From NCBI GenBank assembly GCA_945787445.1, contig CALZHT010000004.1, forward strand, positions 1 to 60,694: a DNA stretch of 60,694 nt, in the 5' to 3' direction. Source of the stretch: an uncultured Desulfobulbaceae bacterium (GTDB lineage: Bacteria > Desulfobacterota > Desulfobulbia > Desulfobulbales > CALZHT01). Under the pieces are notes generated by a model. The model did no database searches and was not told the DNA's origin. It saw only the letters and a list, made by a program, of their open reading frames with translations. The position numbers were made by a program, and so were the translations under genes. Shown here piece after piece: positions 36,228-37,625 of the stretch; positions within the stretch are counted from its first letter, which is position 1, and each line of letters starts with the position of its first letter.

Positions 36228-36316
36228 TTTTTTTTGACAAAAGTACACTTTTTTATCTTCTTGCTTGACATCAATTTTTGGGTGTGATGATTTTTATTTA
36301 GAAATTCAGTGAAAGT

Positions 36317-36396
36317 CACCCGATAATGCCAAACCCATCGCGAGGTGGGGGCGGAAAGCTATGGATCCGCTGGATGCGGAAGGCCGAGCCACCGAA
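36317..36396 (+). promoter_or_regulatory. Cyclic di-GMP-I (GEMM) riboswitch aptamer
   Basis: The core AATGCCAAACC, the stem CCAT-CGCGAG-GTGG with a GCGA tetraloop, the conserved GGCGGAAAGC, and a second stem ATCCGC-TGGAT-GCGGA with receptor bases ending GGCCGAGCC follow the GEMM layout (CAAACC ... GNRA loop ... ACGCAAAGCC). It is followed by an intrinsic terminator that shares its 3' bases, so ligand binding would switch transcription of the DUF2780 gene. Variants of this fold bind cAMP-GMP; the ligand cannot be decided by eye. Confidence 0.75.
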
Positions 36397-36427
36397 GGTT
36401 TCACTTTTGGTGAGTTCGGCTTTTTTT
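36383..36427 (+). terminator. Riboswitch expression-platform terminator
   Basis: GCCGAGCCACCGA pairs with TGGTGAGTTCGGC around a short loop, followed by TTTTTTT. The 5' arm overlaps the 3' end of the aptamer, so the two structures are mutually exclusive. Confidence 0.8.
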
Positions 36428-36574
36428 ATGGCATAATCAATTAAAAATAGAAAAAGATCTTGGAGATATACGGATCCTTTCAATGCAAAATTGGGGCAGT
36501 ATCAGCGATTACAACCGAAAATGACCGATTATGTTGTAAGCAACTCTACTGGGCTAGCAAAGGAGGAGGATATT

Positions 36575-36958
36575 ATGGAGCTGTTAAATCTTTTAATCCA
36601 GAACCTTGGTGTTAATGCTGAACAGGCAAAAGGAGGCGCAGGTCTTATTTTTCAACAAGCACGGGATACGCTTGGGGATGGGGATTTTGGAAAGATTGCC
36701 GCGGAAATTCCAGGCATCTCTGATTTACTCAATGCAGCGCCGAAAAGCAGTGGTTTGGGCGGCGCTATAGCGAGCATGACCTCAGGGTTTGGCGGTGGTT
36801 TAGAAAAATTGGGTGGACTGGCAGGCTTAGCGGGCGGATTTTCAAAGTTAGGCTTGGAATCCGATATGATCGGCAAATTTATACCAATTGTTCTTACTTA
36901 TGTTCAGTCAAAAGGAGGAGAGACCATAAAAAATCTCCTAGCCGGTGCGCTGAAATGA
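36575..36958 (+). CDS. DUF2780 (VcgC/VcgE-like) protein under riboswitch control
   Basis: About 127 residues from ATG 36575, which has AAAGGAGGAGG at ideal spacing; an upstream in-frame ATG at 36491 lacks a site. The protein starts MELLNLLIQNLGVNAEQAKGG, has a helical DTLGDGDFGKIAAEIPGISDLL segment and a Gly-rich middle (GLGGAIASMTSGFGGGLEKLGG), and ends FIPIVLTYVQSKGGETIKNLL. This matches DUF2780, of unknown function. It is the first gene after the riboswitch. Confidence 0.8.
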   Translation: MELLNLLIQNLGVNAEQAKGGAGLIFQQARDTLGDGDFGKIAAEIPGISDLLNAAPKSSGLGGAIASMTSGFGGGLEKLGGLAGLAGGFSKLGLESDMIGKFIPIVLTYVQSKGGETIKNLLAGALK

Positions 36959-37016
36959 AAAAATTAGTTGGAGTGCTACATGTAATCAACCAAAAACGTA
37001 AAAAAGGAGGTTGGCT

Positions 37017-37421
37017 ATGACAAAATTGGAACATATTGAAGGAGTTGGAGACGCTTACGCCCAGAAGTTACAGGCAGTGGGCATCACTACAGCGGAAACA
37101 TTATTGGAAAAAGGTTCCACCGCAAAGGGGCGTAAAGAAATTGCGGATCAGAGCGGACTCAGTGAAAAATTAATTCTGCGTTGGATCAATCATCTTGATC
37201 TTGCTCGTATCAAAGGCATTAGTGCCCAATACAGTGAACTGCTGGAAGCTTCAGGAGCTGATACTGTTCCGGATCTGGCTCGCCGCAAGGCAGAGAATTT
37301 ACTGAGAAAAATGGAAGAGGTCAACGATCAAAAAAACCTTGTCCGTAAACTGCCATCCTTAAGCCAGTTGAGCGATTGGATCGAGGAGGCAAAAACACTT
37401 CCCCGTGTCATTACACACTAA
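37017..37421 (+). CDS. DUF4332 helix-hairpin-helix protein
   Basis: About 134 residues from ATG 37017 behind AAAAAGGAGG; the earlier TTG at 37011 is less likely. Two helix-hairpin-helix-like units read LEHIEGVGDAYAQKLQAVGI and LARIKGISAQYSELLEASGA, the DUF4332 pattern. Such proteins resemble nucleic-acid-binding HhH folds, but their role is unknown. It follows the DUF2780 gene by 58 bases on the same strand and may belong to the same riboswitch-controlled unit. A MITE begins at the last base of its stop codon. Confidence 0.8.
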   Translation: MTKLEHIEGVGDAYAQKLQAVGITTAETLLEKGSTAKGRKEIADQSGLSEKLILRWINHLDLARIKGISAQYSELLEASGADTVPDLARRKAENLLRKMEEVNDQKNLVRKLPSLSQLSDWIEEAKTLPRVITH

Positions 37422-37592
37422 GAGCTTGTCCGTAAATAAGCTTTTCAATGATCGCGCTGGCTGTTGAGCCGGATTTGGCCGTGACGATTGAGCAAAACCG
37501 CAGGCGCAGCAGCGTTACGTTGAGGATTTTGCGATTGAAAAACGGCCAAAGGCCAGATGCGGGTATAAAAGTATTATTTACGGATAAGCTCT
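37421..37592. repeat. 172-bp MITE with AGAGCTTGTCCGTAAATAA terminal inverted repeats
   Basis: The left 19 bases and the inverted right 19 bases differ at one position. Inner segments (GGATTTGGCCGT / ACGGCCAAAGGCC) also pair, so the whole unit can fold. It lies between the DUF4332 and DUF853 genes. Confidence 0.8.
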
Positions 37593-37625
37593 AAATGCAC
37601 GATTATTTAAGGGCATAATAATTCT

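Follow-up and report, generated by a model that had tools for sequence, protein, structure and literature searches.

A class I c-di-GMP riboswitch, probably of the ON type, upstream of an unstudied DUF2780-DUF4332 gene pair in an uncultured Desulfobulbaceae bacterium

The gap between glnS and a DUF2780 gene in the genome of an uncultured Desulfobulbaceae bacterium holds a structured RNA element, and the questions raised by this locus are which ligand the element senses, in which direction it switches, and which genes it governs. The whole stretch of DNA analysed, 60,694 nucleotides of contig CALZHT010000004.1, is referred to as the window. Our main reading, to which we assign a probability of roughly 0.86, is that transcription of a DUF2780-DUF4332 operon is governed by a c-di-GMP riboswitch of class I that acts as an ON switch. 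The features concerned are as follows.

36308..36405, + strand: extended P1 helix (antiterminator side), 36308-36314 paired with 36399-36405, 7 bp; pairs read from the sequence and from minimum-energy folds
36318..36397, + strand: c-di-GMP-I (GEMM-I) aptamer; RF01051 and RF03167 scores, alignment with the 23 other aptamers of the genome
36382..36427, + strand: intrinsic terminator with a hairpin of -26 kcal/mol
36575..36958, + strand: leaderless DUF2780 gene, 127 aa, ATG at 36575, SD AAAGGAGGAGG; PF11075, 111.8 bits
37017..37421, + strand: DUF4332 gene, 134 aa, behind SD AAAGGAGG; PF14229, 140.4 bits, and HHH_5, 36.5 bits
37626..39110, + strand: HerA-like ATPase gene; PF05872, 738.9 bits
17702-18865: GGDEF protein gene within the window, ~18 kb from the riboswitch

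The covariance-model search that had been proposed along with the original prediction of a GEMM-like aptamer returned a significant match of class I, and in the Rfam scan of the whole window RF01051 (c-di-GMP-I) was the sole family above its cut-off, with 53.3 bits (E 1.3e-7) against a gathering cut-off of 35 bits. RF03167 (c-di-GMP-I-GGC) gave a higher score for the same aptamer, 58.2 bits on a 401-base stretch, which is under the 59-bit cut-off of that family, whose consensus also differs in having G where the window aptamer has A47 (36355). The start and end positions predicted for the element proved correct to within 1-2 bases, and so did the presence of a GNRA tetraloop, which is GCGA at 36340-36343 and caps P2 (36334-36339/36344-36349). 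In Vc2 numbering, which is used for all aptamer bases here, the pocket bases G20 (36328), A47, and C92 (36392) are kept; these bases and the identity of the aptamer are established computationally. Fold, loop, and pocket bases are those of Vc2 of Vibrio cholerae (RF01051), while the window aptamer departs from the Vc2 type by a C21-G46 pair in place of G21-C46 and by an A49-C90 mismatch, and from c-di-GMP-I riboswitches in that its target genes have no known function. The C21-G46 pair also occurs in Geobacter cGAMP aptamers.

The likely direction of the switch can be read from the terminator. Its 5' arm (36382-36399) overlaps the 3' strands of aptamer P3 and P1, in line with the predicted overlap with the aptamer, and includes C92; its 3' arm extends to 36421, where the U-tract (36421-36427) begins. 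The fold of the whole region is far more stable than that of shuffled sequences (z = -4.27, with 0 of 200 shuffles equally stable). When minimum-energy folds were computed for growing transcripts, P1 was present at 36407, whereas from about 36410 onward (36410, 36413, and later) the terminator hairpin had formed and P1 was gone, which places the changeover between 36407 and 36413. The terminator and the aptamer are mutually exclusive, as shown by these computations. Because the 5' arm contains C92 and the aptamer 3' strand, ligand binding should prevent termination, and we infer that the switch acts in the ON direction in cells. When c-di-GMP is low, the aptamer 3' strand including C92 would fold into the terminator and transcription would halt at 36421-36427; when c-di-GMP is bound, P1 and the pocket would be locked, the terminator blocked, and both genes transcribed. 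The same ON logic is found in the pilM cGAMP riboswitch of Geobacter metallireducens (PMC9262584), where the 3' strand of the aptamer is likewise drawn into the terminator, together with the C that pairs with the ligand.

The identities of the two genes behind the terminator, which had been called correctly, are also established computationally, as both Pfam scores greatly exceed the curated cut-offs (27.5 bits for PF11075 and 23.2 bits for PF14229). The start codon of the DUF2780 gene is supported by alignment with relatives that begin with MEL, and the product is without a signal peptide. The protein is predicted to be helical (model pLDDT 86), and the fold search gave only TTHA1432 (2ysk; Z 7.8, 105 residues, rmsd 3.1 A), a likeness that was set aside, as TTHA1432 is itself a protein of unknown function and helical arrangements commonly match to this degree. 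DUF4332 is predicted to be a tandem helix-hairpin-helix protein; its AlphaFold model has a pLDDT of 90.7, and its fold matches, to NusA AR2, RadA, and POLQ, are partial and weak, none with E < 0.001. Sequence searches gave no relatives of solved structure for either protein, and our literature search found nothing on DUF2780 and a single figure-legend mention of DUF4332.

We consider the two genes to be presumably co-transcribed under the riboswitch. The alternative that the riboswitch governs DUF2780 only, with DUF4332 expressed from its own promoter and the HerA-like gene unrelated, seems unlikely: an insert-like stretch (37416-37597) with 24-base inverted repeats at its ends (37416-37439/37574-37597) does precede the HerA-like gene, but only 58 bases separate DUF2780 from DUF4332, a strong SD precedes each, a simple consensus scan found no promoter-like site between them, and the DUF2780-DUF4332 neighbourhood recurs in other bacteria. 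The insert lies in the 204-base gap between DUF4332 and the HerA-like gene; the idea that it is an abundant repeat was rejected, as the genome holds one partial second copy elsewhere. The riboswitch-controlled operon may extend to the HerA-like gene as a third member.

Another possibility, which starts from the A49-C90 mismatch, is that the riboswitch is decayed or weak, so that it responds poorly and what stands between glnS and DUF2780 is in effect largely a simple terminator. The A49-U90 pair at the base of P3 is present in the 23 other aptamers of the genome and lost only in the window copy, and a comparison of the printed sequences indicates that the changed bases 90 and 91 favour termination at the expense of the aptamer, for in the terminator they form C-G and A-U pairs, against U-A and G-U in a relative, L009. 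The mismatch may weaken ligand binding, and the better terminator pairing of bases 90 and 91 than in L009 might raise the c-di-GMP threshold. We nevertheless regard a largely decayed switch as improbable, because every modelled pair apart from this one (17 in all) is intact, as are the pocket bases, and the score is far over the RF01051 cut-off.

As to the ligand, base 20 tells the two kinds of aptamer apart, G20 being typical of c-di-GMP aptamers and A20 of the cGAMP type. G20, A47, and C92 are common to all 24 c-di-GMP-I aptamers of the genome, the window's included, and A20 was found in none of them; with G20, and so c-di-GMP, and with its different target genes, the window riboswitch is unlike the pilM switch. 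The genome has 17 GGDEF matches, 15 of them full-length domains, and all 15 have Asp at the site occupied by Ser in the Hypr-type cGAMP synthases (PMC6456294). Because of the G20 pocket and the Asp, without the Hypr Ser, in the GGDEF domains, c-di-GMP is the expected ligand of the window aptamer. That the aptamer instead binds 3',3'-cGAMP, or both dinucleotides, as do GEMM-I variants of Geobacter, is very improbable, since the shared C21-G46 pair and the resemblance of the overlapping terminator to that of pilM are outweighed by a G at position 20 in 24 of 24 aptamers, where the cGAMP type has A, and by GGDEF domains that have Asp and in 0 of 15 cases the Hypr-type Ser. The original prediction had further proposed that the GGDEF protein of the window may form an input-output pair with the riboswitch. 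The protein is indeed encoded there, but the pairing is weak, and the gene was rejected as a dedicated partner, because 17 GGDEF genes and 24 riboswitches exist in the genome, the ligand is diffusible, and the two loci are ~18 kb apart.

The window riboswitch and its 23 relatives (loci L009-L032) also allow a comparison of expression platforms within one genome. Their helices covary, with 15 of 18 pairs changing on both sides (covariation 0.544 versus 0.213 when shuffled), and base 21 divides them into 15 aptamers with C21 (14 with C-G and one with C-A at 21-46) and nine with G21-C46. An automatic scan found a C92-sequestering terminator in 13 of the 15 C21 aptamers (the window's and 12 of the other 14) versus none of the nine G21-C46 aptamers; in the latter group the same scan found four in which a hairpin and U-tract are present but C92 stays outside the terminator stem, and five with none. 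The base-21 group tracks the expression platform, which points to ON regulons for c-di-GMP, and perhaps OFF ones too, within a single cell.

Several of the other loci deserve mention in their own right. In L014, L023, and L032, inspection by eye showed a separate terminator whose 5' arm, GTCACCC, is the complement of GGGTGAC, the 3' strand of aptamer P2, and this pairing is a possible antiterminator, which would make these OFF switches. The five G21-C46 aptamers in which the scan found no terminator are L015, L022, L024, L028, and L029, the last at a contig end; three of the five are on one contig (C41), and two of those three precede Ig/cadherin-like surface proteins. L012 and L018 lie upstream of genes that, named by eye, look glyoxalase-like (VOC) and, further down, superoxide-reductase-like, which would be unusual c-di-GMP targets. 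Downstream of the other riboswitches, many genes appear to encode exported, surface-type, or signalling proteins, and the cytoplasmic DUF2780-DUF4332 pair therefore stands somewhat apart.

Beyond this genome, DUF2780 occurs in two forms, a leaderless one that starts with MEL and in most cases has an SD at its start codon, and an exported one with a signal peptide, a split made by eye after the data had been seen. DUF4332 adjoins leaderless DUF2780, with both genes in the same orientation, in one genome each of Thermodesulfovibrionia, Ignavibacteria, and Zixibacteria, and lies ~3 kb from it in a Nitrospirae genome. Strong DUF4332 matches occur in 14 of 27 leaderless-DUF2780 genomes versus 0 of 21 exported-DUF2780 genomes (Fisher P 5e-5, a value that, like the other co-occurrence P values, ignores relatedness and MAG gaps). 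Eight of the 14 are cyanobacteria, in which DUF4332 may be common, and without cyanobacteria the contrast persists (10 of 22 versus 0 of 24). In the class to which the window belongs, all four leaderless-DUF2780 genomes have DUF4332, and a strong-score DUF4332 is found in 12 of 251 genomes. Because of these neighbourhood and co-occurrence data, we suggest that DUF2780 comprises two biologically different forms, the leaderless one working with DUF4332. Six loci from other phyla (L042, L044, L050, L060, L074, and L077) have a gene for a HerA-like ATPase near leaderless DUF2780, as does the window. The association with a riboswitch was seen once among 71 DUF2780 loci, in the window's genome, the 70 others giving no convincing match; those at L067 (18.8 bits, E 0.0016, GC 29%, 1.8 kb past the DUF2780 gene) and L097 (13.5 bits) were taken as chance.

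The locus is, then, an ordinary class I c-di-GMP riboswitch before an unstudied, recurrent gene pair. Our guess that the pair acts on DNA is based on the helix-hairpin-helix prediction and the HerA context, and a wider reading, which we put forward only tentatively and think rather doubtful, is that a conserved cytoplasmic module, not described so far and probably DNA-acting, is made up of leaderless DUF2780, DUF4332, and the HerA-like ATPase and is here under c-di-GMP control. Induction by c-di-GMP would offer a testable handle on both protein families, neither of which has a known function; one of them, according to its Pfam title (VcgC/VcgE), includes the vcg typing marker of Vibrio vulnificus.
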